From the NCBI RefSeq assembly GCF_038630985.1, contig NZ_CP152049.1, positions 6,034,501 to 6,098,500 on the forward strand: DNA of 64,000 bases, read 5' to 3'. Within the stretch, counting starts at the first letter, position 1; each line of letters starts with the position of its first letter. The translations under genes and the position numbers were made by a program. Source of the stretch: Paenibacillus sp. FSL H8-0548. GTDB lineage: Bacteria > Bacillota > Bacilli > Paenibacillales > Paenibacillaceae. The notes beneath the pieces were generated by a model. The model made no database searches. It saw only the letters and a list, made by a program, of their open reading frames with translations, and was not told the origin of the DNA. Positions 19,379 to 38,189 of this stretch are shown piece after piece.

Positions 19379-19399
19379 TGGTGAAGGAGGCTGGCAAAT

Positions 19400-20548
19400 A
19401 TGAACAAGAAGACGGATCGCGCTTTTGTATGGGGCTTCGTCAGTATTCTGTTTGCCCTGTCGTTATTATTTTTTGTGCTGCCTGTGCAAGTATTCTCCGA
19501 CGTAGAAAATCGCACACTGCAGCAAGCACCCAAGCTTACTTGGGAGAACCTTTGGTCCAAGAAGTTTTCGGATGAATCCGAAAGCTATGTGACCGATCAT
19601 TTCCCTTTCCGGACGGGCTGGGTTTGGTCAAAATCATTACTGGAGCAGCTTCGGCTGCAGCAGGAAAATAACGGCATTTACAAGGGCTCGGATGGCTATT
19701 TATTCGAAAAGTTCAATGAGCCGAGTTCCGCAGAGCTCTTGGAATATACAGCGGCGGTAAAGAAATATGCGCTAAATCATCCCGATGCAAATGTAACCTT
19801 TATGCTGGCGCCTACCTCTATCGGCCTTTATCCCGAGCGTTTGCCTTGGCTCGCCGAAGCTTATCCGCAAACGAACGTAAACAGCCTTATTGCTGATCAG
19901 GTCCAGGGCAGCTTATCGTTTATCAACGGCTTTGACTTTCTGCGTCCGGCTGCCAGCGGCTCCAAGCCGATCTACTACAAAACAGATCACCACTGGACAA
20001 CCTATGGCGCTTATCTGGCTTATGCTGCTTACGCAAAGAACATGGGCTGGACGCCCGCTGTTGAAACGGATTTTGATATTAAAACCGTTACCGATTCGTT
20101 TCTTGGCAGCTATCATACGCGCAGTCAATTCAGCGGATTGGACGCGGATGCCATACAAGCCTATTTACCGAAAAATAGTTTCGCTACTGAAATGTACGTT
20201 GCGGATACCGATCAAACGCTCAGCAGCATGTATGATCCGAGCTACTTAGCGAAAAAGGATAAATACTCTTATTTTCTCGGCGGCGTGCATGCGTTATTAA
20301 CGCTTAAAACCGAGCTTACACCTGGCACAGCTGACCTAGATAAGCTGCTGGTCATCAAGGATTCTTATGCGCACAGCTTCCTGCCATTCCTTACGCAGCA
20401 TGTGGAACAAATTCATGTCATCGATATTCGCTACTATAATGGCAGCATCAGCGACTACATGGCGGAAAACGGGATTAAGGATGTGCTTCTGCTCTTTAAT
20501 ACAACAACGTTTATAACCGAACGGAATTTGTTGAAGCTGAAATATTAA
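19400..20548 (+). CDS. DHHW-family protein (AlgJ/AlgX-like acyl transfer partner)
   Basis: A 382-residue protein with one N-terminal membrane anchor (~10-30) and an SGNH-hydrolase-like extracellular domain. The name-giving motif is KTDHHWTTYGAY near residue 199-210. DSYAHSFLPF near 325 likely supplies the nucleophilic serine. In alginate-type systems the MBOAT protein exports the acyl group and a protein of this fold attaches it to sugar hydroxyls. The ribosome site is GAAGGAGG. Last gene of the three-gene operon. Confidence 0.88.
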   Translation: MNKKTDRAFVWGFVSILFALSLLFFVLPVQVFSDVENRTLQQAPKLTWENLWSKKFSDESESYVTDHFPFRTGWVWSKSLLEQLRLQQENNGIYKGSDGYLFEKFNEPSSAELLEYTAAVKKYALNHPDANVTFMLAPTSIGLYPERLPWLAEAYPQTNVNSLIADQVQGSLSFINGFDFLRPAASGSKPIYYKTDHHWTTYGAYLAYAAYAKNMGWTPAVETDFDIKTVTDSFLGSYHTRSQFSGLDADAIQAYLPKNSFATEMYVADTDQTLSSMYDPSYLAKKDKYSYFLGGVHALLTLKTELTPGTADLDKLLVIKDSYAHSFLPFLTQHVEQIHVIDIRYYNGSISDYMAENGIKDVLLLFNTTTFITERNLLKLKY

Positions 20549-23041: not shown

Positions 23042-26000
23042 TTATGATTTATCTACAACGCTTAACACAGTAAGCTTATATTCTTCTTCACCGATACGGA
23101 TAATGCTGTCCGCCGGGATATCGACCTGCTTGCCGAGATTAACTTCAACCCGGCTTCCATAACCATTGAGCTCATTCGCCTCATTGCTGCCGATGTCTGG
23201 CAGAGGGCTAGTTTCTGCTTGACTCCCCGAATCAGAATCAGATTCAGGCGCATTAGGATTGGTTGTCGCAGAACTGCTCCCTGAAGCACCCGAATCACTC
23301 GAAGCAGCCGTTCCGTATTCCGCATCTGATACAGGCGTTGCAGCAGGCAAAGATGCAGACGGTTCCGTTGACTCCGAAGGCTGCTGCGACCATTCTCCGG
23401 AAGGTGCGTCTGTAACACTGCCATTTGCCGTATCCGTGCTGCAGTTAGAGGCTAGCATCAGCTTAGTATATTCAACCTTTTCAATGCCCGCCGACTCTAT
23501 AGTTAACGAGCTCGGTGCAAACTGTTCACAAGCGGCTGCGTCCTTGAACAAGAACACTAGGGAGGTTGTTGCCTCCTGCCCCTCGATTTCCGGCTGCAGC
23601 TCCGCATAAACGAGCGTATCTGGACCCGTCATATTCGCTTCAGCAGTAGGCTGAACCCCAGGCAAAATGGCCCCTTCCTTCCCCTCATCGCCTTTGTTCG
23701 CATTAGAGTAAATGAACCCGGCAACGATCAATACAACTCCGAGGCCCGCAATCGTTGTTATCATCTTCGCTTTCGAATTCCGAAAAAATAATAAGGGATT
23801 GCCCGAGGAAAGCTCTCGTTCAGCCTGCTTATATACAGCCTTAAGGAAGGCCCCTCCCTTGTCGAAATGCTGTTTCCGATTCGCACGTTTCTTGAAAGCA
23901 TCGCGGTCATATTTCACAAAATAGCTGACAATCGCTGAGGAATATGCAGGTACGAACCCTCTTGGCCTCATGAATTCAGACTGCTGCTCAGACCATTGAA
24001 AAAACTGATAAATCATTTCCTTATTCGGAGCATGACGATGCAAATAGTCCAGCAATCCCACATAATCTACTGTCTCTGTATCGGTACTGCGCAGAAACGC
24101 CAGCATAAGCTGCGGAAAATCAGCTCGATCCAGCTGTCCCTCCAGCAGCCCGCGTCCTGCCAACTGTACAAGATCAATCTCCGGCGGCGACAGTCTGTCG
24201 AACAATGAAGCTGACGGCTTAGGCTGCACAAACCATTCATACAAGGCAAGCAGCATAACGGCTGCCGAGCTCTGACGCGGATCCTGCAGCTTTCCGTTCC
24301 AGCGCTGCAGCCGATCCTTATGGCTTAGGAAATCTGCTGACGCAAGCTGATCCTTGGTGATCCTGCTCAGCTCAAGCTCAGCAAGCGTCGTCCGATAGAC
24401 AGCAAGCTCCAGCTCCCGATATAAATCCCCAGCTTCATCCGAGGATCGCTGTTTTTCTATTCCATCCAGCCTGCGCAGCTGCTCGAAGGCTCTGCTAACC
24501 GCTGGGAGCGAATAGCGCTCACGCTCAAGCTTGCCTTGCAGCTGCTGACGGGCTAGTGTATGGAAAGGCGCATAACCAAGCAGCTTAGGATGCACGCTGC
24601 CCCACTCCTCAATGAGCTGAAGCACGCTTTTGGCACCTGATACCGCTTGAAGCTTCTTCTCCAGAAAGGGCAGCAGTAATGTGTCGGCCAGCCGCGAACC
24701 AGCAAGCAGCGACTTAAAAAAGGCTTTGCTTAAATTCGGACTGCTTTCAATTGCCGCATAAAGCGCAGCCGCTGCTTCCTGATCGTTCTGCTTGTTCGCA
24801 TTATTGAGCGCTGAGATGAAGAAAGAGATCATCTTGCCCTCAAGATTTTTGCCATCGATTCGGTAATACTCCTTGAAGACATCCACAATGAACGCCTCGG
24901 GAACTGCCCCTTGCCGTACACGATCAAATTCATAATCGAAGCGTGACAGAAGAATATCATTCAGCCGAATTTTTGAATCTATTGAGCCTGATGGCTCCAA
25001 ATAATCGAGCAGGCCTCGCAGCACCGCGCTTTTATGCGCTTCATAGAGCGATTCATTGCCCTCCTCAATTTGATAAATAATGCATAGCTCATGATAGCTG
25101 GATGCAGCTGTTTGACGCTCTGCCCCCATATCTGCCAGCATTAACTGAGCAAATTGAAAGAAGCTCTCCGCGCGATCCGGTCGCTCTAGCATGTCCCAAG
25201 CGAAATCCAAATACGGCTGCTCCGCTCCATCCAAATCCACATTCATGATCCGGCCGCTCACGAAATCAAACGTAAAATCCTTCTCGATGCTTCGATCTCC
25301 CGGGCGTAGGCTCCCCTGCTCAACGAACGTTAAATGCACTGATTTTCTACTTTGCGGCTCCTTGGCATAGGTGATAAAGCCAAGCTGCTTGCGATAGGCA
25401 TAAGGCAGGCTCGCATAAAGCACCATCAGAAGCTGCTTGGCTTTGTCCGGCAGTTGAGCAATAGGCACATCAAGCGAAACATATATTTTCTTCTTGCCGC
25501 CAACGGCTGCCATCACCGCATAAAGCAGCTGCTTGAAAGCCTTCTCTCCAATATTCAGCAGTGCTAATATGGAACGATACGAGGGTCTAACTACAGCCGC
25601 CCTCTCAAGCGGCAAATGCGCAAGCTCTGCGATCTCTGTCCCCTTGTCAATATCATAGCTGTCCGTAAAGGATGCTCGCAGCCAGCTCTCATAAGGACTG
25701 ACTGACTCATCTTCATGACCGCTTGGAATAACATAGTTATGTGTAAAGAACGCGCTGCGAAGCCCCGTGAAATCTGCTGCCTGATACACGCTGCGTCCCA
25801 GCAGGATATCGCCATTATCCAAATGGAGCAAATGCATCGTCTCTGGATATGCCGCTCCGTCCTTCTCACCGCGTGTGGAAAGCTCCGCAGGTGCGTCGTA
25901 TACACAGAAGGGATGCAGCACTTTTTTGATAAAAGCAGGCTCTAAACCGTTTGATTTGGCGATCGTGTCGTAGCCTTCCGTGGATCTGAAAATACCGCGT

Positions 26001-26056
26001 CTCTCCCGTGCGTACAGCTGCTGCTGGATCATCCTGCGGGGCTTGGAATCGCGCAC
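23042..26056 (-). CDS. GAP1-like (GTPase-associated) membrane protein
   Basis: A 1004-residue protein with GTG start; its first base is the last base of the upstream GTPase stop codon, so the two are coupled. The N-terminal ~250 residues (QQQLYARERRGIFRSTEGYD; KVLHPFCVYDAP) fit the N2-type domain of GTPase-associated protein 1 as I know it. A long helical middle follows. One membrane helix lies near residue 757-779 (TTIAGLGVVLIVAGFIY), then an extracellular Ser/Thr/Ala-rich linker and a short beta domain at the end. So a cytoplasmic part faces the GTPase and the tail lies outside. It is probably the output or scaffold of the system; no enzymatic motif is visible. Confidence 0.8.
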   Translation of the reverse strand: MRDSKPRRMIQQQLYARERRGIFRSTEGYDTIAKSNGLEPAFIKKVLHPFCVYDAPAELSTRGEKDGAAYPETMHLLHLDNGDILLGRSVYQAADFTGLRSAFFTHNYVIPSGHEDESVSPYESWLRASFTDSYDIDKGTEIAELAHLPLERAAVVRPSYRSILALLNIGEKAFKQLLYAVMAAVGGKKKIYVSLDVPIAQLPDKAKQLLMVLYASLPYAYRKQLGFITYAKEPQSRKSVHLTFVEQGSLRPGDRSIEKDFTFDFVSGRIMNVDLDGAEQPYLDFAWDMLERPDRAESFFQFAQLMLADMGAERQTAASSYHELCIIYQIEEGNESLYEAHKSAVLRGLLDYLEPSGSIDSKIRLNDILLSRFDYEFDRVRQGAVPEAFIVDVFKEYYRIDGKNLEGKMISFFISALNNANKQNDQEAAAALYAAIESSPNLSKAFFKSLLAGSRLADTLLLPFLEKKLQAVSGAKSVLQLIEEWGSVHPKLLGYAPFHTLARQQLQGKLERERYSLPAVSRAFEQLRRLDGIEKQRSSDEAGDLYRELELAVYRTTLAELELSRITKDQLASADFLSHKDRLQRWNGKLQDPRQSSAAVMLLALYEWFVQPKPSASLFDRLSPPEIDLVQLAGRGLLEGQLDRADFPQLMLAFLRSTDTETVDYVGLLDYLHRHAPNKEMIYQFFQWSEQQSEFMRPRGFVPAYSSAIVSYFVKYDRDAFKKRANRKQHFDKGGAFLKAVYKQAERELSSGNPLLFFRNSKAKMITTIAGLGVVLIVAGFIYSNANKGDEGKEGAILPGVQPTAEANMTGPDTLVYAELQPEIEGQEATTSLVFLFKDAAACEQFAPSSLTIESAGIEKVEYTKLMLASNCSTDTANGSVTDAPSGEWSQQPSESTEPSASLPAATPVSDAEYGTAASSDSGASGSSSATTNPNAPESDSDSGSQAETSPLPDIGSNEANELNGYGSRVEVNLGKQVDIPADSIIRIGEEEYKLTVLSVVDKS

Positions 26057-27315
26057 TATTCTCTTCTCCCCTCAATGTAGTTCAGCTTATAAAGCAGCCA
26101 AATGAAAGGCTCATCCACTCGGATTGGGCTAACGACGGTTTGCAGCTTCTGATCCACGGGGTTGCTGCCAAGCGCGGATACGGCGTAATACGCGGTATCT
26201 CTGAAATAAACGTCCATCGTACCTTTGAAGGGCCGATCGACCTTCTCAATAAAGCGGCGGATTTCTCCATCGATATTTTCGAATTCTGTCAGGTTAAAAT
26301 AATTGCGGTGCACCATATTGTTGAAAACATTGCTGTTCGATTTAATGTATTCCCCATCCTCATCCTTAAGCGAATGAAGCATGTCGCTCTTCGTCAGCAC
26401 GACGGCGGTCGGAATATCCGTTTTGTTGTTCTCCTGATAAGCGATGAAATCGCCGAACATCGTTAGCACGACATCGCGCGGCTCATCGTATTGGGAGACC
26501 CATTCTCCCGGCTTGTCGCCGAGGTTCATTCTTATTTTCTCGCGAATGGAACGAATTTGCAGCGGATCAACCATCAGCAGAATGCCTGCCGAGTTTTTGA
26601 TATGCTGGCCGTGAAGGCCAAGGTAATCCTGCTCCACCATACCCTCGCCCGCCACATCAAAAAATACGAGCGTAAGCGGCGGCTTCGATTCATCCTTAAA
26701 CACAAATTGGAAAATGAAAGGCTCCTGCATTTTCTCCTTTTGGGTGGAAGCAAGCAGATCGCCGCGCTCGAATAACGGCTCCTCGTAATAGGTACGGAAC
26801 TTGCGGCTAATCTCGGCATTAAGCGGCATGCAGGCTGCATCAAAATGGTCTGCTGTCGTATTTTGAAGCGTATGAATTAATGCCGTCATATACACCGATT
26901 TACCAACCTGAGATGCGCCGATAATTGAAATGATGTTGCTTGGCGCCTTGCCCGCCGTTACTGGAAGCTCGTTATGGCATTTCGGACATAGCCTTCTGCG
27001 TGTCAGCTCTCCGTACCGATCATTAATGCCAATGAGCACATGGTCGGAATAGACGCGGTATTCCTCCGGCACATCTACCGGATGCAGCACCGCCTCCATA
27101 TCGTGAACGGAATCAAGGCCAAAGCGCTCCCGATATTTATTGAGCTCCTCATCCTCTCCAAGCGCATAATCCTCATCGTCCTCACGGGAATGGGTAGCGC
27201 GGAAAACGACCTCATCCGGCGTAAACTTGCTAAAGCAGTAGGGGCACACAATATCATAAAATAACGGCCGCTGCTTTGGCTCTGGTTTCTTCTTAAAAAG
27301 ATCAAAAATACCCAT
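26056..27315 (-). CDS. Zinc-ribbon P-loop GTPase (conflict-system type)
   Basis: A 419-residue soluble protein. Two zinc-knuckle pairs, CPYC (24-27) and CPKC (110-113), flank a charged insert. The GTPase core has Walker A GASQVGKS (133-140), a G3-like DVAGEG (220-225) and G4 TKSD (308-311). The domain resembles the double-GTPase proteins that occur with GAP1 partners. The lysine, serine and aspartates needed for nucleotide binding are all present, so it should be active. It is followed directly by the GAP1-like gene and preceded by a beta-rich protein gene 14 bp upstream. Confidence 0.85.
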   Translation of the reverse strand: MGIFDLFKKKPEPKQRPLFYDIVCPYCFSKFTPDEVVFRATHSREDDEDYALGEDEELNKYRERFGLDSVHDMEAVLHPVDVPEEYRVYSDHVLIGINDRYGELTRRRLCPKCHNELPVTAGKAPSNIISIIGASQVGKSVYMTALIHTLQNTTADHFDAACMPLNAEISRKFRTYYEEPLFERGDLLASTQKEKMQEPFIFQFVFKDESKPPLTLVFFDVAGEGMVEQDYLGLHGQHIKNSAGILLMVDPLQIRSIREKIRMNLGDKPGEWVSQYDEPRDVVLTMFGDFIAYQENNKTDIPTAVVLTKSDMLHSLKDEDGEYIKSNSNVFNNMVHRNYFNLTEFENIDGEIRRFIEKVDRPFKGTMDVYFRDTAYYAVSALGSNPVDQKLQTVVSPIRVDEPFIWLLYKLNYIEGRRE

Positions 27316-27329
27316 CCGATCTGCCTCCT

Positions 27330-27965
27330 TTATACTGAAATCAGCTCGTACATTTGCCCATAGGCTCGGCCATCTGTGAAAAACAATCGAATATAGTCCT
27401 GTTTGCCAACCTCAATGGCTGGCAGAACATTTTTTCCCGCCGCGAACGGCGCAACGAAGGGATACTGCAAGCCGTCCTCTTTATTCGCAGGGTAACCGCC
27501 TTGCTTCTTCACATAGCAGAGTACATCCTTGGCGATCGGCACTTCTGGCGTAACCTGAATTTGAATCGTTTTGAGCTTTCGAAAAAAACCGCTCTTGTCA
27601 GAAATTGAATAATATATTTTAGCCTTGCCGGCACTGATTTCTATTCTGTTCTCACGATTCTGCTGAAGGATAAGCTGCGGGCCGCCGCTCCCTTCCAAGC
27701 AAGCATATACGGTGAAAATATATCGCCCGAAGCCCTCGATTCGGATATGATAGCCGTTGTTCGCTTTATATTCCGCCTTCGTGTACAGCTTCATATTTGC
27801 AGCGTTCTCACCGCTAATCTCCGCCTGCTCAGCAGATACCTTCCCAATATAGACCGCGTCTAAATCACGCGGCCAAATCCAGCGCAGCGTACAGCGGTCC
27901 TCCTCCATAGTACGGGTCAAGCCGCTGATCATAGGAGAAGCCGCCTCCGCATCCATAAAACGCAT
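27330..27965 (-). CDS. Beta-rich hypothetical protein of the tubulin/GTPase operon
   Basis: A 211-residue protein without signal peptide or membrane helix. Alternating hydrophobic pattern and frequent Tyr/Gly suggest two immunoglobulin-like or FN3-like beta sandwiches (for example HIRIEGFGRYIFTVYACLEG and KTIQIQVTPEVPIAKDVLCY in part). It is between the membrane vWA gene (22 bp) and the GTPase (14 bp), so it is made with them and probably acts as a binding module. I know no catalytic function. Confidence 0.65.
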   Translation of the reverse strand: MRFMDAEAASPMISGLTRTMEEDRCTLRWIWPRDLDAVYIGKVSAEQAEISGENAANMKLYTKAEYKANNGYHIRIEGFGRYIFTVYACLEGSGGPQLILQQNRENRIEISAGKAKIYYSISDKSGFFRKLKTIQIQVTPEVPIAKDVLCYVKKQGGYPANKEDGLQYPFVAPFAAGKNVLPAIEVGKQDYIRLFFTDGRAYGQMYELISV

Positions 27966-27987
27966 TTACATCCGCCTCCCGCATCGT

Positions 27988-29277
27988 TTAAAATCCATGG
28001 CTGCGGCTGTCCTTTGCCCGCCCGCTGAAGCCTGTAGAGGAAGGCTCAGCCTTCTTGCCACCGCTTCTTCCGCCACTGCGCGGCTTAAGGCTGCTGCTCT
28101 CTCTAACCGGTACAATAAGCGTAAATGCACCAATAATTGCCGCCAGTACAAGGATCGCTATAAAGCGAATGAAGCCATCTGAGAACGCATGCCCGGATAA
28201 TCCATATTCCAAAATAAATCCAGCCAGCAAGCCTGAGACGATGCCTCCAGCGCCAAAGCTTAGCGCAAGGAAACGATTGTCGAACATTAACCCCAGCGAT
28301 ACTCCAATAGCTGCACCGATAATGGCTAATGATAAAATCCGCAGCAGCGTGTAGAACGTACTATGCTCCATCACACCTGTACGGTCCGTTATGAGGGTCC
28401 GATTATCAAGCTTGTTGTATATATTTTGGAAGACGAGCGCTATTCCACCTGCTTCTGATACATCGTAATAGCTTCCTCCGGTAGAATCCGCGATTTGCTG
28501 AAGCAAAGCTGTGCCTCTAGCATCTACGACACTAAGGCCAACCGTATTGACGACTACCTGCTGTGCTTGATAGGCTTCAAGCTGCCGACTGATATTAGAT
28601 TCACTGAACCCATCGGACAGCAAAATAACCATCGTGCCGCGCTCTGCATATTTTTTGCTCTCAATCGTCTTCATCGTCTCCGCCAGCGCTAGGCTAAAAT
28701 TGGTTCCGCCATCCGTCGGCTCAAGCGCATCAATCGCCGCATTCACTTCATCCTTCTCAGCCTGCGACTTCACAGAAACGAAGGGCTGCAGCAATTCGGC
28801 TGTATTGCTGAAGACGACTACAGCCACTCGTTTATCGTCCTTCATGTTTTCAATCAGCTGCTTAGCAGCCGTATAGCGCTCGTTTTCCGGGTCTGTCTCC
28901 AGCATGCTCCCCGAGTTGTCTATGACGAGCACGATATCCTTTACCTGCTTGCTGCCGCCGAAATGCAGCCCGTAAAGAAGCTGCAGCAGCGCTCCAACCG
29001 CAAACAGCAGCACCAGTGTAGCTGGTACGAGCAGCTGCCACGATAAGCCTGTATAACGCGCTCGCCAGGAAGAACCGTTCAAACGAGGCGCAATCATCTC
29101 GGCAATCAAGCAGGACAGCCCGATGCAGAGCGCAAGAACGCCAAAGTAGAGACCTGCGACGACAAAGCGCGGCCAGCTCTCGAGCAGCGCGCCTAGTATA
29201 ATCTCGCCGATTGCGAACCCCACTGTACCGCCAATTAAGCTGAACAGCAGAAGCAGCCAATTTATTTTTCGTTGCAT
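27988..29277 (-). CDS. Polytopic membrane vWA-domain protein
   Basis: A 429-residue protein. Three N-terminal membrane helices (about 7-25, 38-60, 82-102) are followed by a von Willebrand A domain with a complete metal-ion (MIDAS) site: DNSGS (120-124), the conserved Thr in TDGGTNFS and Asp in ILLSDGFSE. Three more helices follow (~310-390) and a basic, glycine/serine-rich tail. The vWA domain has the organisation of adaptor vWA proteins that bind partners through Mg2+. It is the fourth gene of the operon; 59 bp separate it from the 800-aa gene upstream. Confidence 0.85.
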   Translation of the reverse strand: MQRKINWLLLLFSLIGGTVGFAIGEIILGALLESWPRFVVAGLYFGVLALCIGLSCLIAEMIAPRLNGSSWRARYTGLSWQLLVPATLVLLFAVGALLQLLYGLHFGGSKQVKDIVLVIDNSGSMLETDPENERYTAAKQLIENMKDDKRVAVVVFSNTAELLQPFVSVKSQAEKDEVNAAIDALEPTDGGTNFSLALAETMKTIESKKYAERGTMVILLSDGFSESNISRQLEAYQAQQVVVNTVGLSVVDARGTALLQQIADSTGGSYYDVSEAGGIALVFQNIYNKLDNRTLITDRTGVMEHSTFYTLLRILSLAIIGAAIGVSLGLMFDNRFLALSFGAGGIVSGLLAGFILEYGLSGHAFSDGFIRFIAILVLAAIIGAFTLIVPVRESSSLKPRSGGRSGGKKAEPSSTGFSGRAKDSRSHGF

Positions 29278-29336
29278 ATTGAAAGCATCCTTTCCGCACT
29301 TGCTAGTGGACCGCAGCTATTACCTAGTCATACCGG

Positions 29337-31739
29337 TCAGCGAAGCTTAGGCAGAAGGGAGGGATCAAGCGCGTGAAACTCGTACCCGTTCTGCATATAG
29401 GTTTCGTAATAGACTTTGCCGTTCCGATAGTACATTAAATCATCTAAATGAAAGCCGCCCATAAGGTTCAGCTTCTCAACCCCGCTGCTGCGCTTCTCAT
29501 GCACACAGCCGAGCTTATAGATGCGCGACGTTTCGTCCACGCCAAGAGCATAGCGAATAAACTCGCTTTCCCGATCTCCAAACAAATATTTCTCCTCATA
29601 ACGATGCTCATGTGTATAATCGAGCAGCCTTGTATGAATAACAGCATTTTCCTCCAGCATGCGGTAAAGCTTGTGGAACAGCTCGTCCCTCGATAATGCT
29701 TTGCGATTGCTGTAAGCAATCGATACGTTCGCCCGCAGCAGCAGCTCTTCCTCAAAGGTCTGAGCAAAGGGCTCAGCGGTCAAAATATGCTTGCGGCAAA
29801 TACTAATCAATCGCTCTACGAATGGGATATCTCCCTGCTCCAACAGCTGCCTAACGCTGCTCGCCAATGCGTTCTCAAAAAACGCCGCTGTGCCGCGCTT
29901 CTCCTCAAACTCCTTCATCACATTCTCGGTTACACGCTCATAATAATCGAAAATGTTCTGCCCGATATATTCATCTGCGACACGGATGCTTTGCAGCGCC
30001 GTCTCCTTAAGCTCATGCTCTAAACCAGCCATTTGCTCCACGCTAGCCTGATACGTCTCGTGCAGTCGATTCAGCTCACCAGCAAATCGTCGATACATCG
30101 CAAGCTCTGTCTCCAAACGCAGCAGATGCCACTTCAGTTGATAAACGGTGTCAAGAAATACTCGTATAAAGGAACGCAGGTTTTGCTTGTCCAGCAGCGG
30201 AAGCCGCTTGAATTTCAAATCCTCGACTCGCATTTCACGGGTTCGCTCAAGCTCCTCGCCCGCCAAATCAATTTCTCTAACCAAATCGCGCATACGAGCG
30301 CGAACAGCCTCCACCGTACTTCCAGACTCCTGCTGCTCGCCGCTCCATTCAGCTACCTGATAGAAGCTAATTTCCGGATGCTCCTTCAGCCTTTGACTAA
30401 CGGTGCGCTGCAGCTCCTCGGCCGCTTTCACAGCCCCCATGCGCTCTTCCGCTGCGCTAGTGAAATGCTTATGAAAGAAGGTGGCGCAGCTATCGCTGAA
30501 CAGTGCTTCCTCAGCCTCGCGCAGCGACATGCGCCGAATCTGTTCGAACTTGATCCCGCTTGTTAAGAGCCCCTGCATATCGACGAGCTGCTCCTCGCTT
30601 GGTACGATACCAGCCAATCTCGCCTCCATCGCCGGCGCATCAAGTCCGAAAAATGCCAGCTTCTCCTTGCTGCCGAGCTCAGGGCTGCTTTGCAGCCTCA
30701 GCTTCAATTGCTTGAAGAAGTGATAAAGCACCGTCAAAGCAATTGAATAGTTAGGACGCTTCACCTTGGCTAGTCCAGCAGAGACGAAGCCCTGCCTTCC
30801 AGATTCGGCCATCAAGCTGTTCTTGAAGGAGGAATTGTTGTAGCTTACCTCATTAGACTGCAGCTGCGCATCCTTCCTCTTCCTGTTTTTGAGCAGCAAA
30901 ATGTGGCAAATGATTTCATAATTATCCAGCATCCCGTTCTGAGTCGTCATTCCACGCTCGTTGCGGTCAGATAATACATAGACAAGATCAAACAACGGAG
31001 ACGAGTTGTGAATAACGGGGATCGCTAAACCGTCTCCTGTCACTTGCAGCTGCGCGGAGTACGAATAATCAGGCCGCTGCATGCCGTCCAGCTCACGCAA
31101 GAAGCTAATTCCAGCCGCGCTGCCATACCCGAACGTCTCCGCTTGCTCCCGTTCCTGAATTAATGCGTACATATCCATTTGCACCGATTTGAACAGCAGC
31201 AGAAAAATCGATTTGGCAAGCAGCGATATTTCAGGCACGAGCACGTTTAAAGGATCATCTACCCTCGTAATGACAGCTAGCTGAAGGCGATCGAAGGAGG
31301 CGTACAGACGTCCATAATCCGCTATTCTATCGCTAACCTGCCGCAATGCTCGGTTAAGCTGCACCAGATGGCTTCCTTCTTCATGGAAGGCTGCTCCGAT
31401 ATCCTTGCGCTTTGTTCGGCTGTCGCCTTGACCCGCAGTAACGCCAGCCAGTGAAACCCGCATAACCTTTTGAGAGGATTTAATACGCTTGCCTTCATCC
31501 TCCTTGGCGAGTGCTGCCGCTGTTTCTCCTGTGCATACATGAAAGTATACAACTCCGGCATTGTTATCCCATCTCTGCTCATTCGAGCGAATCATCGGGG
31601 CAATAGCTTCTTCTGCCTCATCGCCAATAAATAAAAAGACAGTTGGATAATAAATACTGCTCTGATCATCCTCAAGGCCGCTTAGCTTCTGTTCTGCGGC
31701 CGAATAATCGGCCGCGTATTGATCCAGCACTATTCTCAT
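29337..31739 (-). CDS. Large hypothetical partner of the tubulin-like protein
   Basis: An 800-residue soluble protein that I cannot place in a family. The first ~200 residues have a mixed alpha/beta pattern (PTVFLFIGDEAEEAIAPMI; LNVLVPEISLLAKSIFLLLF) that could be a degenerate vWA-like or Rossmann-like domain. The middle is long, charged and helical, with coiled-coil character around 430-620. The C-terminus is a small aromatic domain. The start is 2 bp after the tubulin-like stop, so it is translationally coupled to it and probably binds it. Confidence 0.65.
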   Translation of the reverse strand: MRIVLDQYAADYSAAEQKLSGLEDDQSSIYYPTVFLFIGDEAEEAIAPMIRSNEQRWDNNAGVVYFHVCTGETAAALAKEDEGKRIKSSQKVMRVSLAGVTAGQGDSRTKRKDIGAAFHEEGSHLVQLNRALRQVSDRIADYGRLYASFDRLQLAVITRVDDPLNVLVPEISLLAKSIFLLLFKSVQMDMYALIQEREQAETFGYGSAAGISFLRELDGMQRPDYSYSAQLQVTGDGLAIPVIHNSSPLFDLVYVLSDRNERGMTTQNGMLDNYEIICHILLLKNRKRKDAQLQSNEVSYNNSSFKNSLMAESGRQGFVSAGLAKVKRPNYSIALTVLYHFFKQLKLRLQSSPELGSKEKLAFFGLDAPAMEARLAGIVPSEEQLVDMQGLLTSGIKFEQIRRMSLREAEEALFSDSCATFFHKHFTSAAEERMGAVKAAEELQRTVSQRLKEHPEISFYQVAEWSGEQQESGSTVEAVRARMRDLVREIDLAGEELERTREMRVEDLKFKRLPLLDKQNLRSFIRVFLDTVYQLKWHLLRLETELAMYRRFAGELNRLHETYQASVEQMAGLEHELKETALQSIRVADEYIGQNIFDYYERVTENVMKEFEEKRGTAAFFENALASSVRQLLEQGDIPFVERLISICRKHILTAEPFAQTFEEELLLRANVSIAYSNRKALSRDELFHKLYRMLEENAVIHTRLLDYTHEHRYEEKYLFGDRESEFIRYALGVDETSRIYKLGCVHEKRSSGVEKLNLMGGFHLDDLMYYRNGKVYYETYMQNGYEFHALDPSLLPKLR

Positions 31740-31741
31740 AG

Positions 31742-34700
31742 CTATTTCAACTTTCTGCGAATTTCATTAAGCTTTGTCGTCATTTCCTTGTAGAAGCGAT
31801 GCATCTCCTCGCCATTTGCCAGCTCGACCTTCTCATATTCGAGACGCTCGCGCGCATCCAAGAAAATGCCGAACAGCTCCTCCAGCTTAGCCAGCAGCTG
31901 CGAGGTATCTTCCGTTGCTGTCATTTCCGTAACTCTGCGGCCAGCTTTGCGCATAAGCACGCTGCGGCTCTTCTCATCGAGCTGTCGGAAGCTCTCATAG
32001 ACCTCTTGCTCCACATAGTTGCTGCTCTTCATTAAATTAGCGAATGGCGGCCATGCTTCCTCTTCCGGGTCACGGTCATACACATAAAGAGCGCCCTTCT
32101 TGCAGATCGTATCGGTATATAGAGCCTCGATAAACTGATCGAAGCCTTTTCCCTCATCCTCATGCTGGTGCAGCAGCTGCTCAAGCTCGCTCGACTTAGC
32201 CGCTATGGCGTCGTATTTCGCTAATTCCTCACGAACAAGCCTTAGTTGCTCCGGTGAACGAATTAGATTTTCCTGCGCCAGCTCCTCATTGAAGCTTCCG
32301 AATATATCCTTCGTCGATTCGAGCTCCAGACCTTCCGAGAGCAGACGCTTCAATTCATTCAACGCTCGTTTAACCTCACCCAAATTCGGCTTTGCAGCAT
32401 CCAGCTGCATATTATATGGCTTTAATTCAGCCGCCAGCGAAAAAGGTTTCGTGAAACGAAGCTCATATCGGCTGCTCAAGTTATTGTTAATGTCCTTCTC
32501 CGCAATAATGCGATAGCCTTCGGCTTTAACAAACTCAGCACGTACTCTTGCGTTGTAGCTTTTCACTCGCGGATTAACGTACGTGTCGCCCCATGATTTC
32601 TCTGGAATTGGCGATGGCAGGAAGGTCCAATTGACTCGCTCGGTTTGTACCAAATGGCGTCCAATCCCTTCCTTATCCATGATCGTCCGCTCATAGCTTT
32701 CCTCATATACCTTCAGCGGCGTATAGACGAACAGAGGCACACCGTTTCTCGTATTCAGCCAGAAAATCCGATTTTTGACCTCACTTTCCTTAATGGTAAA
32801 GTGAGATTTGCCAATCGAGTTGTTTTGGTAGTTTCGAATACCGCGCAAAATGCTAGGCGCTTGAACCGGTACGGACACGAAGCCCCATGACGGCACATGC
32901 AAATTGCCCGAGCTATTGCTCAGATGGAATACAGGTACAGCCTCCTCGTCCAATTTGCTGGCGATATGGCGCTCGACAAACTTCTCGATCGATTCCTCGT
33001 TCCCGTATTTCATAACGAGAAACTCTTCCATCGACTTCGTAATCAGATCACCAAATTTATCGGTCAAAAATTCCGAGATGGAGCTGACAATATCGACCTC
33101 CTGCTCCTTCACCCACAGATTGGAATGGTCCAGCAGCTCCTGCGTAAAGTCGCGAATCAGGTCATCCCCGTCCTTCTTGTCCATCAAGCGGCTGATCACA
33201 TCGGAAATATCCGGTACGCCGACAATATTCCAATAGTAGGTTTTGTTTCCTTTGTGATCCGCTTGCTCATCGCCTTTGGTGAGAAGCTCGCCATTTTTGG
33301 CAAAAATCGAATTAAGCACATTTAGAATTTCCGTAAATACGTTGTAAATCCGATTATTTTCATTATTCAGCAGCGTATGCAAATCCTCATAAAACTCAAT
33401 CAATTGCTCCATGCGCTCGACATCGGCAAGCAGCCAGTACTCATTTATTTTTGCTTCAATATAGTTGTTTTTCTTCTTATCCTTGGACACGAACGCACTC
33501 TTCGCATCGCCCATCCGCTCCTCCGCTTGCTCTCTAGCCGCTTCAATCTCTCGTGGAAGACGTGTCAGATTCTCGCGAAGCGTCTCAATATAAGAGAGCA
33601 GCATCTTGAGCAGGCAGAAGCCCTTTTCCGTATAAAGGAGACGCGACACATAGAATGGTCCCTGCTCCGGATGAAGGAAGGTACGCCGAATTTGATCAGT
33701 AAATTGCCCAACGATTTCACCAGGAAGCTGTTTTTTGGCTTTGATGTATTCCTCTCGCGCACGTGCCAAGAAGTTTTGCTCCAGCTCGGTGTCCATGTTC
33801 ACTGCCTGCATCTTCACCACATTATTGTAGCTTAGGCGCTCACTGTTCTCGAAGCCTGGGAGCGGCTCCGGCACACGCGAATCGAACGTCTTCATCATCG
33901 TTTCGAGATCGATGCCCAGCTTGTGCGCGAACTTCTCCACGTCATCCTGACTCGGTGCCCTGTCGAACATTTTGTCCATTTTGTTGAAGAGACGGTACGC
34001 TAAGTAGGTTGTCATTTCCTCAATCGGCAGCACCGCCGAGGAAGCACCAATAATGTTATAGTCGTAGTTAGCCGGGTACATTTTGTTCATTTGAGCGATA
34101 TTCGTCCGAATATTGCTAATATAGTCATGAATGGCGAATTCCTCGCCCGACTGCTTCTCTTCACTCGAAATAAAGTTCGTAATGTTCTCCGCTGTTACGT
34201 TCATGCAGTAATCATAGGCATTTTCAAGCAGCTTGCCTTCCGCATTAGTAGCAGAAATAAGATGGCATAGGTTAAATGGCGGAAGCGGCGAATTAACGGA
34301 TAAAATATTGCCGTACTGCTGCTTGAAGCGCTCTCCCCTACCGTCCACATTCATCCAATAGTCCAGCTCCTTCAGAGCTGCATAGCCGTTTTTCTTAATG
34401 TACTCGCGCGTATGATCACTCAAGCTTTTGTTCGCAAGATTAATGTCCGGCGTAAACAAATAACCAAGCGTATTTACGCGGTCGATACCCGCAGCGCCAT
34501 GATCGCGCTCGATTATCCCTCTAACGATATAGGAAATATCAAGGAAGCAGCCGCTTCCTGTTCCGCCCGATAAACCCGTAAGCAGAAATACCATCAGCTT
34601 CTTATTCGTGCCGACAGACAGCGTCTTGATCTTCTTGTCAATGCTTTGCACGACCTGATTAATCTTCGTAAACAGCAGCAGCCGTCCTGCTTGACGCACG

Positions 34701-35131
34701 CCTGCCGCTCCGTTCATCCCATCGGTAATGCTAAGCTCCGGCGAGAGCCAGTCGGTAATGTACGGCTCCAAAATACTGCGGTTTTGCAGCAAGCCCCCAA
34801 CCTCGGCATTGGATAGCAGCACGAATTCATTAATCGGATCAAGACCGATGCCCTTATACTTTTTATTGCGATCCTGCTCGTTCGTTTCGAAGGCAAGAAA
34901 CTCCACGTTGCTTGGCTTCTCCATCTTCCTTTTGGAAACAGGATCCTCAGGCAGCTTAAAGCGCCGATTAATCTGATATTTCAAGCGCAGCAGCGCATCA
35001 ATCCCTGTACCGCCAAGTCCAATAATCAAAATCGGATTGTCAATGGTGTCTACCCGTATTTTCTCACTGACAATACCTCCGCCAAGCGATACATCAAGCT
35101 GCTGTATATGTTCTCTTACGATTGGTTTCAT
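31742..35131 (-). CDS. Tubulin/FtsZ-like GTPase of the Tubulin_2 type
   Basis: A 1129-residue protein. The N-terminus has a Rossmann-type nucleotide loop, IIGLGGTGIDALLRL (36-50), and the tubulin signature GGTGSG (189-194, within LTGLSGGTGSGCFLDIS). Together these identify the FtsZ/tubulin-superfamily GTPase core. After ~400 residues the rest is a long helical extension found in the large bacterial tubulin-like proteins. No membrane helix. GTP-dependent polymer formation is likely from family knowledge but not shown here. It is the second gene of the minus-strand operon, 25 bp after the secreted vWA gene. Confidence 0.9.
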   Translation of the reverse strand: MKPIVREHIQQLDVSLGGGIVSEKIRVDTIDNPILIIGLGGTGIDALLRLKYQINRRFKLPEDPVSKRKMEKPSNVEFLAFETNEQDRNKKYKGIGLDPINEFVLLSNAEVGGLLQNRSILEPYITDWLSPELSITDGMNGAAGVRQAGRLLLFTKINQVVQSIDKKIKTLSVGTNKKLMVFLLTGLSGGTGSGCFLDISYIVRGIIERDHGAAGIDRVNTLGYLFTPDINLANKSLSDHTREYIKKNGYAALKELDYWMNVDGRGERFKQQYGNILSVNSPLPPFNLCHLISATNAEGKLLENAYDYCMNVTAENITNFISSEEKQSGEEFAIHDYISNIRTNIAQMNKMYPANYDYNIIGASSAVLPIEEMTTYLAYRLFNKMDKMFDRAPSQDDVEKFAHKLGIDLETMMKTFDSRVPEPLPGFENSERLSYNNVVKMQAVNMDTELEQNFLARAREEYIKAKKQLPGEIVGQFTDQIRRTFLHPEQGPFYVSRLLYTEKGFCLLKMLLSYIETLRENLTRLPREIEAAREQAEERMGDAKSAFVSKDKKKNNYIEAKINEYWLLADVERMEQLIEFYEDLHTLLNNENNRIYNVFTEILNVLNSIFAKNGELLTKGDEQADHKGNKTYYWNIVGVPDISDVISRLMDKKDGDDLIRDFTQELLDHSNLWVKEQEVDIVSSISEFLTDKFGDLITKSMEEFLVMKYGNEESIEKFVERHIASKLDEEAVPVFHLSNSSGNLHVPSWGFVSVPVQAPSILRGIRNYQNNSIGKSHFTIKESEVKNRIFWLNTRNGVPLFVYTPLKVYEESYERTIMDKEGIGRHLVQTERVNWTFLPSPIPEKSWGDTYVNPRVKSYNARVRAEFVKAEGYRIIAEKDINNNLSSRYELRFTKPFSLAAELKPYNMQLDAAKPNLGEVKRALNELKRLLSEGLELESTKDIFGSFNEELAQENLIRSPEQLRLVREELAKYDAIAAKSSELEQLLHQHEDEGKGFDQFIEALYTDTICKKGALYVYDRDPEEEAWPPFANLMKSSNYVEQEVYESFRQLDEKSRSVLMRKAGRRVTEMTATEDTSQLLAKLEELFGIFLDARERLEYEKVELANGEEMHRFYKEMTTKLNEIRRKLK

Positions 35132-35156
35132 AAATTACTGCCTCCTGTGCTCTAAT

Positions 35157-36929
35157 TTATACGAGATATTCGATGAATATCGTTTTGTCCACTTGCTTCA
35201 GCGAAACCGTAATCCGGTCCCCGCTCTTCATTTCCAACTCACGAGCTGCATCGATGGCCCGTCCCGACTTCTCAACCGTGGCGGTAGACGCATTTTGCAG
35301 CACGATACGGTCATTGCTGCCTGGTTTAAAGATGACCTTCTCGGTTTCCTTCATTTCCGGCGCGAGCTGCAGCAGCTGGTGAAGCTGAAGCTTTCCCTTG
35401 AAGGCTGAGAGCTTCTTGTACTGCGGCGACGTTTTGTCGCCTGTATTTTCATCGCGAATTTCGATGATCAGCTGTCCGACAAAACCTCGATTCGCCTGCT
35501 TCATAATCCGCAGCACATAATAAGCTGCCGCCAGCAATACAATTAGCCCTACAGCACCTAAAATAACAGGAACGATTGGGAATGGCTTTGCCTCTTCGAG
35601 AGCTGGCTCAGCCGGTGTCGCCGCACCCGATTTGGCACTAATGGTTATGGCATCTGTTTCACGGAAGAAGCTTTTCTCCTCCGCCTTTACTCTTATCTCA
35701 TAGTCATGCTTCTCAGCAATTTTATATGTTCCTTCAAAATGGTCTCCCGCGTTTTCCATCGGGATCTCCTCTGTCGCGCCCGTATCCATATCTTTAACGA
35801 GTAAAACAGCATTCATGTTGCTGTACTGCGTGTTGTCCTCCAGCTTTTTGCCGCCGCTGACGAGGTATGAGGTGAATGACACCTTATCCCCCTTTGAATA
35901 GGTCGATGAAGCGAGCGGGTCCATCACGAGGCCCAAATCATAGTTGAAAACGAGATTAATATCGATTTTATCCCGATTCACGCCTTTCACCTGAAGCGTC
36001 CAATCTCCTTGTGACGGAGCAAGCAGCTTAAGCAAAGAATAGCTCTTTGACTTCGACAGCAGCACTTCATCGGAAGGGATCGGAATCTCGTTGCCCGACG
36101 GGTCAAGCAGCTTGGTCTCCACAGGCTGATCCGACATAATAGAAATATTCGCTTCGAGTACGTTCGAGTTGGGAACCGATATTTTCACATTCTGGTAGCT
36201 GCCGTCCGCTGTAAAGGAATCGACTGGCACAACGTTGAGCTCCAGATGGCTGGCAAAAATTTCACTCAGAATTTGCGGCAGATCATCTGCCGAATCGGTC
36301 GCAAACGACTTGCCGCCAGTCAAGCGCGATAACTCATCCAAAGCTGTTTCATTTAATTTCCCATTAGCGTTCAGCCCAATCGTATAGAGCGGAATGCCGC
36401 TGTCATTCGCTTCTTTAAGCGCCAGCTCCATATCTGCATCAGATTCGGCTTGTGTTCTACCGGAGCGTTTGTCAAAATCGTTATTGCCGTCTGCCAGCAA
36501 AATAATCATCGGCTCATGATCAGGATCAGCGCCGTCATTAAGAATTTGCACAGCCTCCTTGACGCCAACGGATATGTCCGTATAGGCACCGCGGTTTAAC
36601 TGGTCGATAAAGCTCTTTAGATTATCTTTATCTGCTGTCGACTGAATTTCAAGCAGCGCCTTCTCACGCTGAATCTGATCCGTATACGCAACGATGCCCA
36701 CCCGATCTCCCTTTGTCGGCAGCATGTCAATGAACATCTTCATCGCTTCATTCCCGATTTTTCCCGGATCACTGGTACTCATGGAGTTGCTTACATCCAG
36801 TACGAGCACTGCGTCGATTTGGGAAGCGCCTTGCGCCGCATGCACGGTAGAAAGGCCGCTGAGCGGGAGAAGCAATAAAGAGATCGAAAGCACGATGAGA
36901 TGACGCCTAAAGCGTTGAAATGGATTCAT
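35157..36929 (-). CDS. Secreted, membrane-anchored vWA protein (first gene of the system)
   Basis: A 590-residue protein. A signal peptide (~1-32, ending VHAA) leads to an extracellular vWA domain with MIDAS DVSNS (45-49) and IILLADGNNDFD. A beta-rich middle follows (~210-430). One membrane helix (~447-475, VPVILGAVGLIVLLAAAYYV) precedes a cytoplasmic beta domain of ~110 residues that resembles an FHA-like fold (GQLIIEIRDENTG; DRIVLQNAS; GDRITVSLKQ). The topology suits a receptor: metal-dependent binding outside, coupling inside. Ribosome site GAGGAG; it heads the seven-gene operon. Confidence 0.85.
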   Translation of the reverse strand: MNPFQRFRRHLIVLSISLLLLPLSGLSTVHAAQGASQIDAVLVLDVSNSMSTSDPGKIGNEAMKMFIDMLPTKGDRVGIVAYTDQIQREKALLEIQSTADKDNLKSFIDQLNRGAYTDISVGVKEAVQILNDGADPDHEPMIILLADGNNDFDKRSGRTQAESDADMELALKEANDSGIPLYTIGLNANGKLNETALDELSRLTGGKSFATDSADDLPQILSEIFASHLELNVVPVDSFTADGSYQNVKISVPNSNVLEANISIMSDQPVETKLLDPSGNEIPIPSDEVLLSKSKSYSLLKLLAPSQGDWTLQVKGVNRDKIDINLVFNYDLGLVMDPLASSTYSKGDKVSFTSYLVSGGKKLEDNTQYSNMNAVLLVKDMDTGATEEIPMENAGDHFEGTYKIAEKHDYEIRVKAEEKSFFRETDAITISAKSGAATPAEPALEEAKPFPIVPVILGAVGLIVLLAAAYYVLRIMKQANRGFVGQLIIEIRDENTGDKTSPQYKKLSAFKGKLQLHQLLQLAPEMKETEKVIFKPGSNDRIVLQNASTATVEKSGRAIDAARELEMKSGDRITVSLKQVDKTIFIEYLV

Positions 36930-37080
36930 ATTTGTACTCCTCTACATTGGGACAGCCTATATTGCCAAGCTAGTCCAATAGTCACGGTTAGTTTCTGTTG
37001 CTTTGAAAATGATATAATATAAAATGAGTATACCTGATAGATTTCCATAAATCACTATTACTGTAAGAGGGGAACAGCCT
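36930..37080. promoter_or_regulatory. Shared divergent promoter region of the tubulin/GTPase system
   Basis: A 151-bp spacer between the minus operon and the plus pair. On the plus strand TATAAT at about 37014-37019 could be a -10 box about 60 bp before the small gene; the -35 match is weak, which may mean an activator or another sigma factor. The minus-strand start has GAGGAG upstream. Confidence 0.45.
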
Positions 37081-37236
37081 ATGGTTACTTACGTATGTCT
37101 TGCGCTAATGTTTCTTTTTGTCTTAATCACAGCCCTTAGCTACCGTTCGAGAGTAAAACGCGCACCCTCTCCCGAACAATTGAACAAGCTTGTCTTCTCC
37201 ATTCTCAAAAGCGGCGGGCAGCGTGATCGCGAATGA
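37081..37236 (+). CDS. Small membrane protein, 51 aa, coupled to the next gene
   Basis: ATG 37081 follows AGAGGGGAACAG. The product begins MVTYVCLALMFLFVLITALS, a single membrane helix, followed by a basic cytoplasmic tail (YRSRVKRAPSPEQLNKLVF). Its TGA overlaps the ATG of the next gene (ATGATG at 37233), a classical translational coupling. It is too short for usual gene finders. It is divergent from the tubulin/GTPase operon and probably belongs to it. Confidence 0.75.
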   Translation: MVTYVCLALMFLFVLITALSYRSRVKRAPSPEQLNKLVFSILKSGGQRDRE

Positions 37237-38189
37237 TGAAGAAGCTGCCTGTTATTATTAGTCCTTATATTAAAACACGTTATCCTTATAATAAGCTTAA
37301 AATATGCCGCCGCTGCAATCACTTTACAGTACTTGGCGACGAGGATTGTCCAGTATGCGGAAAATCTTCATTGCTTGGTGTGGAGCAAAGGGCTGCCTCC
37401 ATACTGAAGCGATCCATGTGGGGCGCACGGGTAATCGTTATGCTCATTTGGGCCATAAGCCTTGTCGTGAGCCAGTCGATTTTGCAGACCAGCTTGTCCA
37501 TTATAGGAGGAGCCGTGCTACTCGCTCTATTATGGACGTTGCAGAGACGCCTGACCCCTGCACTTTTACGTGTAGAGCTTGAAAATTTATTTCACAAAGA
37601 AGCCTATACCCTCGTAGCTGGGCTTGCTAATGACCGCGAAGAAGCTATAAAAGTATTTCATAGCGGCAATAAACCGCTCGCCTATGAAATGCTGCGCGAG
37701 ATCGGAGCGCTTGTACATACCGATCAGCTCCGAATAGAGCAAATATTGCTGCTCCAATCGTTTATGCTGCGCAAGGACATGGATCTTATGATAGACCCGC
37801 TGCTGATGGACCATTTTAATACAGATCTTGTAGAGTATATCGGTGAGCTCGCAAAAATCAGACGGGATCTGCTCAAGGAAAATACGTTTCGGTACGTGCT
37901 GCTGCACGAAATCCAGATTTTGAAAATGGAGCAGGGCGACAATATTCTCGCCTCGGTTGCCGGCGCCGCAGTTAGAATGCAGCGCTATATTTCACTTTAT
38001 CCGTATTTGATCATGCGTTATGCAGGCAAGCTTCCGAAGGATCGTTTTCTGCGGCTCTACCGAATGCTTCAGAGCAATCCTGAAATCGGAACAGGCCCAT
38101 TGTATGAAGAAGTTATGCGCGTCTATAACGAGAAATACAAGTGGGATGAGGATTTTCGGTCAACTGGCAACGAAACGGAATTGAAATAA
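37233..38189 (+). CDS. Zinc-ribbon membrane protein of the tubulin/GTPase system
   Basis: A 318-residue protein. An N-terminal zinc ribbon with CRRC (25-28) and CPVC (39-42) is followed by two close membrane helices (~65-103; VIVMLIWAISLVV and IIGGAVLLALLW). The rest is ~200 residues of cytoplasmic alpha-helix, with repeated Leu/Arg/Glu patterns suggesting a helical-repeat scaffold. No family recognised. The gene shares the promoter region of the tubulin/GTPase operon, and the GTPase also has a zinc ribbon, so a role in the same machine is inferred. A terminator follows. Confidence 0.75.
   Translation: MMKKLPVIISPYIKTRYPYNKLKICRRCNHFTVLGDEDCPVCGKSSLLGVEQRAASILKRSMWGARVIVMLIWAISLVVSQSILQTSLSIIGGAVLLALLWTLQRRLTPALLRVELENLFHKEAYTLVAGLANDREEAIKVFHSGNKPLAYEMLREIGALVHTDQLRIEQILLLQSFMLRKDMDLMIDPLLMDHFNTDLVEYIGELAKIRRDLLKENTFRYVLLHEIQILKMEQGDNILASVAGAAVRMQRYISLYPYLIMRYAGKLPKDRFLRLYRMLQSNPEIGTGPLYEEVMRVYNEKYKWDEDFRSTGNETELK

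Follow-up and report, generated by a model that had tools for sequence, protein, structure and literature searches.

A nine-gene locus of Paenibacillus and Brevibacillus encodes an intact and a degenerate tubulin beside a P-loop GTPase and a GAP1 protein

Gene content of the locus

We analyzed a stretch of 64,000 nucleotides from Paenibacillus sp. FSL H8-0548 (NZ_CP152049.1, 6,034,501-6,098,500), here called the window, whose positions are used as coordinates throughout. Between positions 23042 and 38189 it contains seven genes on the minus strand, which in order of transcription are P7 to P1, and a divergent pair on the plus strand, P9-P8 (Table 1). The seven genes are spaced by 25, 2, 59, 22, and 14 bp, followed by a 1-bp overlap. 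An earlier note on this DNA had described this arrangement, including the 151-bp divergent gap and the strong terminator at the operon end, and all of it was found as described. The terminator has the longest stem in a scan of the window and is correctly placed; the scan returned 17 terminator-like sites against 16.6 in shuffled sequences, so that most of the others are noise.

Table 1. Genes and signals of the locus
Feature	Position	Strand	Description	Basis
P1	23042..26056	-	1004 aa, GTG start; GAP1 protein (GAP1-N2 and GAP1-M), one transmembrane segment ~765-783, polar tail of ~220 residues	Pfam, hydropathy, tail composition, distribution
P2	26056..27315	-	419 aa; P-loop GTPase of the DO-GTPase kind, one CxxC...CxxC zinc-ribbon-like pair	Pfam, motifs
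P3	27330..27965	-	211 aa; all-beta, first half FN3-like, second half probably another such domain	Structure model, FN3 structures, distribution
P4	27988..29277	-	429 aa; multiple transmembrane segments, vWA domain between the groups	Pfam (VWA 8e-21), six hydrophobic segments
P5	29337..31739	-	800 aa; second, degenerate tubulin without GTP-binding loops, then long helical region	Pfam, hhalign, fold, alignment
P6	31742..35131	-	1129 aa; FtsZl1/Tubulin_2 protein, intact GTP loops	Pfam, motifs
P7	35157..36929	-	590 aa; signal segment, vWA domain (predicted to lie outside), one transmembrane segment ~450-468, tail of ~120 aa	Pfam (VWA 7.6e-15), hydropathy
Divergent region	36930..37080		151 bp; TGATATAAT element at 37010 directed to P9-P8	Sequence of the gap and of relatives' gaps
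P9	37081..37236	+	51 aa; microprotein with a single transmembrane segment	Open reading frame, hydropathy, relatives
P8	37233..38189	+	318 aa; N-terminal CxxC...CxxC pair, two hydrophobic segments, C-terminal part without recognized fold	Open reading frame, hydropathy, genome search
Terminator behind P1	23002..23036	-	Intrinsic; 16-pair stem, T8 tail	Terminator scan

One of two tubulins has lost its GTP-binding loops

P6 matched the Pfam family Tubulin_2 over residues 35-385 (E 7e-75, 252.9 bits). Its T4 loop (SGGTGSG) and T1 loop (GLGGTG) were each kept in 95 of 96 aligned rows, the sole exception being the distinct protein of genome G088 (locus L097), which reads AGGTGSG and GLGGIG. An SGGTGSG loop in a protein of this length is a feature of the FtsZl1 family.

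The earlier note had counted a single tubulin-like protein and missed that P5 is a second, diverged one. Its tubulin-domain match lay below threshold in the window copy, but among 60 homologs 31 had such a match at E<=0.01, and both hhalign and the predicted fold likewise identified it as a tubulin. For alignment A1, the window P5 was combined with 59 of 120 listed homologs (236 found). At the strand-loop-helix positions where P6 carries GLGGTG, P5 mostly has F-x-GD, and at the T4 position the glycines are replaced by letters of the type DDPxNV. None of 95 rows had two adjacent glycines at the aligned T1 and T4 places. A plain string search for a GTP loop in the first 420 residues of P5 gave one hit in 95 sequences (L074, residues 103-108), well ahead of that protein's own T4 place at about residue 190, and a slightly different pattern gave none in the 16 copies from outside Paenibacillaceae. 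Because the glycine-rich loops are absent from the aligned relatives, P5 is predicted not to bind GTP. The tubulin region is followed by predicted long helices, and the protein has one borderline hydrophobic segment. Public records name some P5 homologs "transcription initiation factor TFIID", for which we found no support.

The G088 locus (L097, 4226-16401) is a different Tubulin_2 locus, encoding a tubulin of 1123 aa and neighbors of 747, 728, and 1407 aa. These neighbors had no Pfam match, and GAP1-N2 was not found in the G088 genome. The tubulin gene is followed, after about 30 bp or less, by the gene of the 728-aa protein, which may be another partner worth testing.

A DO-GTPase and a GAP1 protein are encoded together

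P1 matched GAP1-N2 (6e-48, 162.9 bits) and GAP1-M (1e-27, 96.4 bits), both with a cut-off of 24. Among its relatives, a transmembrane segment in the C-terminal half was present in 87 of 91 sequences scored, and the tail had a median length of 245 residues, rich in A, G, S, T, D, and E. P2 matched DO-GTPase2 just over the cut-off of 27 (8.5e-7, 29.3 bits) and DO-GTPase1 at 1.4e-6. Its motifs were invariant across all 94 rows: GxxxxGKS, TKSD or AKSD, and the Walker B glutamate in the form of DVAGE or DAAGE. Intact GTP motifs in two classes of GTPase, which the earlier note had observed in the window, are conserved across relatives, in the P6 loops as well as in P2. The single CxxC...CxxC set of P2 (residues 24-27 and 110-113) amounts to a single ribbon carrying a long insertion.

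vWA proteins, an FNIII-like protein, and membrane topology

The vWA domains of P4 and P7 had been noted before, and profile searches with Pfam confirmed them along with Tubulin_2 and GAP1-N2. The residues of their metal ion-dependent adhesion site, claimed to be intact in both, are mostly kept: the six commonest forms in P4, all of them DxSxS, account for 94 of 95 rows. A crude count gave five to eight hydrophobic segments in P4 relatives. The FHA-like tail that had been suggested for P7 could not be substantiated, as Pfam returned neither an FHA nor a YtkA match for this protein.

P3, the other protein whose identity had been missed, gave a structure model with a pLDDT (predicted local distance difference test) score of 90 that resembles FN3 structures. 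Judging from this model, P3 is a fibronectin type III (FNIII)-like component, its second half probably forming another domain of this type. Alignment A2 combined the window P3 with 41 of 120 listed homologs (161 found). The public name "beta-mannanase" on P3 homologs was unsupported, and one of them (P0206) carries a precomputed PF25833 label. Compared with sequences in the PDB, P1, P2, P3, P5, and P6 gave no credible match, and the NCBIfam matches of the parts fell far under their cut-offs.

By hydropathy, membrane segments are present in five of the nine proteins (P1, P4, P7, P8, and P9), leaving out the borderline segment of P5; the side of the membrane that each domain would face is a prediction. 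P8 is poorly conserved, its relatives having a median identity of 41% to the window protein.

The nine genes occur as one unit

To determine the distribution of the locus, 197 evenly drawn Paenibacillaceae genomes were searched for P1 (by GAP1-N2), P3, P5, P8, and Tubulin_2, while P2, P4, P7, and P9 were checked inside the loci only. GAP1-N2, P5, and P3 were each found in 95 genomes, and these were the same 95. P8 occurred in those genomes as well, with one additional partial match in G168 (E 2.6e-4). Tubulin_2 was over its cut-off in 96 genomes; the additional one was G088, in whose stretch the other eight genes are missing; at E<=0.001 it was found in 98, the further two being weak matches.

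Gene order was equally constant. Reading the loci around P6, 70 of 95 contained the full set, with P8-P9 divergent and then P7 to P1. Another 22 had the same order with P9 not found at the cut-off; in one P9 was misplaced, one was cut by a contig end, and one was that of G088. Eight or nine genes in order were present in 93 of 95 loci, and under a looser rule a P9-like peptide was seen in 77 of 94. Outside Paenibacillaceae, all 16 loci had all nine genes in order. P8 lies divergent beside P7 in 94 of the 95 family loci and in all 16 others. The same gene order is present in Brevibacillus; with a Brevibacillus P5 as query, three loci were retrieved, two from Brevibacillus and one from Paenibacillus. 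In wider draws, Tubulin_2 was found in 48 of 299 genomes across the class (46 over cut-off), and GAP1-N2 in 8 of 299 across the phylum (7 over cut-off). The nine genes are one system, all-or-none for the parts that were searched genome-wide. The single-system idea of the earlier note had made co-occurrence its check, and it held: P1, P3, P5, and, apart from the weak G168 match, P8 were never found apart in the 197 genomes.

Distances between genes, measured from the last sense codon to the first start codon, single out two pairs. The P6-P5 gap was 2-15 bp in 94 of 94 loci, and the P2-P1 gap ranged from -46 to +6 in 93 of 93. The other four operon gaps extended up to 1.1 to 2.05 kb in some loci. 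As only these two gaps stay short everywhere, P6-P5 and P2-P1 stand out as pairs that are made together.

Additional genes and regulatory signals

Some loci contain extra open reading frames. In nine loci of genus g8 (e.g., L019 13676-15103 and L021 4908-6266), one of 448-476 aa, on the same strand as the operon, is inserted between P4 and P3, and the five scanned copies are pyridine nucleotide-disulfide oxidoreductases. A 250-aa frame without Pfam match lies between P3 and P2 in L061 (g10). In two g8 loci, L032 and L049, P7 and P8 are separated by 1.9-2.4 kb, which in L049 contains a second P7-like frame. In L118 (G363, outside the family), P4 and P8 seem disrupted, at 214 aa and at 247 aa plus a fragment, respectively, and most other genes are of the usual length.

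A tenth gene, encoding a protein of about 600 aa with one N-terminal transmembrane segment, accompanies at least 55 of the 95 family loci and all 16 others (loci L003-L096 and L118-L133). In 49 family loci it is the next sizeable open reading frame behind P8; copies may have been missed, as each stretch extends about 2.4 kb past P8. Two of five scanned copies have a C-terminal bacterial SH3 domain, suggestive of a link to the cell wall. No tenth gene was found when the window's genome was searched, without a positive control.

A consensus scan of the 151-bp divergent gap found no sigma-70-type promoter. An extended -10 element, TGATATA[AG]T, pointing toward P9-P8, was present in 63 of 93 divergent gaps, at 1.66 per kb compared with 0.09 nearby. 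A direct repeat, [GC]TTAA-N6-[GC]TTAA, occurred in 39 of the 93 gaps, from four genera and not including the window; it could be a candidate site at which an OmpR-type regulator acts on the P7 operon. PhoP-type TTMAC repeats were rejected, with 0 of 93 gaps in the forward and 1 of 93 in the reverse direction.

Elsewhere in the window, group II intron RNA domains lie on the minus strand at 11963-12262. Two plus-strand genes at 17996-20548 resemble, by eye, a membrane-bound O-acyltransferase and an AlgJ/AlgX-like partner; they are near the cluster and not members of it.

Descent and rates of change

Presence of the locus follows clades. By genus code, carriers were frequent in g6 (18/19), g7 (21/22), g8 (16/16), g9 (3/3), g14 (21/21), and g19 (1/1), intermediate or rare in g10 (5/7), g18 (6/21), the window's own genus g1 (3/21), and g2 (1/21), and absent from g3 (3 genomes), g4 (6), g5 (8), g11 (1), g12 (1), g13 (22), g15 (1), g16 (1), and g17 (2). 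In a tree of P6, P2, P7, and P4 joined (95 rows, FastTree without bootstrap, L097 left out), genus labels required 10 changes, against a minimum of 9 and an average of 60.7 in shuffles. The three g1 carriers stand at three places in this tree, and the window copy adjoins that of G194 (g2). Since the g1 carriers are scattered in this way, the window copy may have been transferred between near relatives, or most of g1 may have lost the locus.

For comparison with the host lineage, RpoB was taken from 60 of the 197 genomes, hand-picked among the matches listed (29 with and 31 without the system); the third g1 carrier, G186, was not included. Two rows that were not RpoB (G012 and G109, both from genomes without the system) were dropped, and on the resulting tree of 58 genomes presence required 9 changes, compared with an average of 19.8 and a lowest value of 15 in 100 shuffles; with all 60 rows, 10 changes were required. 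Distances of eight proteins correlated with RpoB distances across the 29 carriers (Mantel r 0.42 to 0.64), and 0 of 999 permutations were as high. With RpoB trimmed to well-filled columns, mean distances relative to RpoB were 2.1-fold for P6, 2.0-fold for P2, and 4.5- to 7.1-fold for P7, P3, P4, P5, P8, and P1. A core as slow as RpoB was therefore rejected; the regression slopes that had suggested one, 1.11 (P6) and 0.89 (P2), ignore the intercept.

Searching a phage collection with P6 gave no match, and searching plasmids gave only a partial cyanobacterial match, with none on kindred plasmids. Comparing all nine proteins with PADLOC gave nothing better than E 0.01.

Relation to published systems

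The locus belongs to a published kind, as judged from the parts of two papers that were compared. Makarova and Koonin (2010, PMC2875224) defined FtsZl1 as a protein of about 1000 aa with an N-terminal FtsZ-like domain, a GGGTG(S/T)G-type loop, a central coiled coil, and a helical C-terminal domain. They described vWA and GTPase genes as its neighbors and predicted a role in membrane remodeling; Brevibacillus brevis is among the species in their Figure 1 legend. The present locus shares the large FtsZ-like protein with its GTP loop, linked to vWA genes and a diverged P-loop GTPase gene. It differs in that a second tubulin is not mentioned in the parts of their main text that were compared; the linked families B1-B9 are unnamed in that text, and P3, P5, P8, and P9 may overlap with them.

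A second likeness in gene content is found in Kaur et al. (2020, PMC7159879), in whose text a Firmicutes tubulin theme of GAP1-N2-type DO-GTPase systems is called a conflict system. This theme comprises two tubulins, two vWA proteins (one fused to YtkA, one with multiple transmembrane segments), a DO-GTPase, and a GAP1 protein with a polar tail; in GAP1-N2 systems the GTPase usually has two N-terminal zinc ribbons, and an FNIII-repeat component occurs. Of these elements, the following recur here: GAP1-N2/GAP1-M with a polar tail, a zinc-ribbon DO-GTPase, an FNIII-like protein, two tubulins, and two vWA genes, one of them (P4) with multiple transmembrane segments. P2 has one ribbon set, and Pfam gave no YtkA match for P7. 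The earlier note was right that sets of GAP1, GTPase, and vWA genes are known as conflict systems, but not in holding the composition to be undescribed, as the core already appears in section 29 of that paper. Its overall interpretation is partly supported: it stands as to the single system, not as to the novelty of the core, and the FHA-like tail has no support. The tubulin passages in the main text of Kaur et al. do not mention loss of a GTP site, a divergent microprotein with P8, or a strict order. As far as the published text was compared, what is added here is the degenerate state of one tubulin, the coupling of two gene pairs, the divergent pair as an invariant member, and a distribution that is all-or-none and follows clades. 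We found no experimental study of these systems among the matches listed in the open-licence PMC literature.

Two unlike tubulin-fold subunits that are encoded or used together are also known from BtubA/BtubB and from eukaryotic alpha/beta tubulin, a comparison of working principle and not of membership. In both of these, the nucleotide sites are kept in both subunits. P5 differs in lacking both loops.

A proposed envelope-associated tubulin assembly

Gene set, motifs, predicted folds, coupling, and co-inheritance are observed; contacts, filament formation, sidedness, ligand, and outcome are inferred from them. On this basis, we favor, at modest odds and with about an even chance of being right, an envelope-associated assembly that is inherited and in which a GTPase controls an active tubulin and a GTP-dead one; a role in anti-phage defense seems less likely to us. 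P6 and P5 would assemble together on the inner side of the membrane, where the GTP cycle would come from P6, and P5 would serve as a fixed cap, as a nucleator, or as an alternate subunit. The vWA proteins would bind cell-wall or surface ligands on the outside via their metal site, and the P2-P1 switch would couple their ligand state to assembly. P3 may serve as an adaptor, and P9-P8 as membrane parts. The likely outcome would be local remodeling or stabilizing of membrane and wall, and not a one-shot suicide response.

The strongest competitor, which we consider doubtful, is the conflict system proposed by Kaur et al. (2020), directed against phages or other invaders. Here, the surface and FNIII parts would sense the invader, the GTPase would set a threshold, and tubulin polymers would act as decoys, a barrier, or a trigger of dormancy. 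The gene set matches their theme as far as its text was compared, presence is patchy in some genera, and the distances of P1 and P8 are 6.5 to 7.1 times those of RpoB; these points speak for a conflict system, and such fast divergence leans toward defense. Against a conflict system speaks a composition that is nearly constant within the family and without exception outside it, the clearest insertions being the nine oxidoreductase-type frames of g8 and the 250-aa frame of L061. The clade-wise presence, extending from all genomes of g8 and g14 to none in g13, and the negative PADLOC, phage, and plasmid searches argue in the same direction. Together, clade-wise heredity and absence from phages lead us to lean toward the envelope.

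A strict reading after Makarova and Koonin (2010), in which FtsZl1 filaments remodel the membrane or form vesicles, the other parts are a scaffold, and the GTPase and GAP1 proteins are structural rather than signaling, appears improbable. The FtsZl1 neighborhoods in the compared parts of their text and the membrane segments in more than half of the proteins fit it. That same text, however, could not align the T6-H7 region of FtsZl1 and left filament formation open, and the P-loop and tubulin GTP sites are both kept here, which suggests regulated turnover. That two or more separate units merely lie side by side, with P9-P8 a neighbor and not a member, is nearly refuted: the pair is on the opposite strand and P8 is less conserved, but P8 is confined to the P5-bearing genomes, bar the weak G168 match, and keeps its divergent place beside P7.

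Returning to the envelope-associated assembly, its full form can be put forward tentatively, and we see it as somewhat more apt to fail than to hold. It would be a two-subunit tubulin apparatus with one permanently GTP-dead subunit, driven by a P-loop GTPase and GAP1, tied to vWA and FNIII proteins at the surface, and inherited in Paenibacillus and Brevibacillus. It would be a linkage of cytoskeleton to surface of a kind that has yet to be observed in action, rather than a defense system. If true, 95 of the 197 sampled Paenibacillaceae genomes, as well as Brevibacillus, carry an uncharacterized two-tubulin machine, which would offer a tractable test of the roles of FtsZl1-type tubulins and of DO-GTPase/GAP1 pairs. 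It would also allow testing whether a tubulin works with a GTP-dead partner, and whether published "conflict systems" are really envelope machinery.

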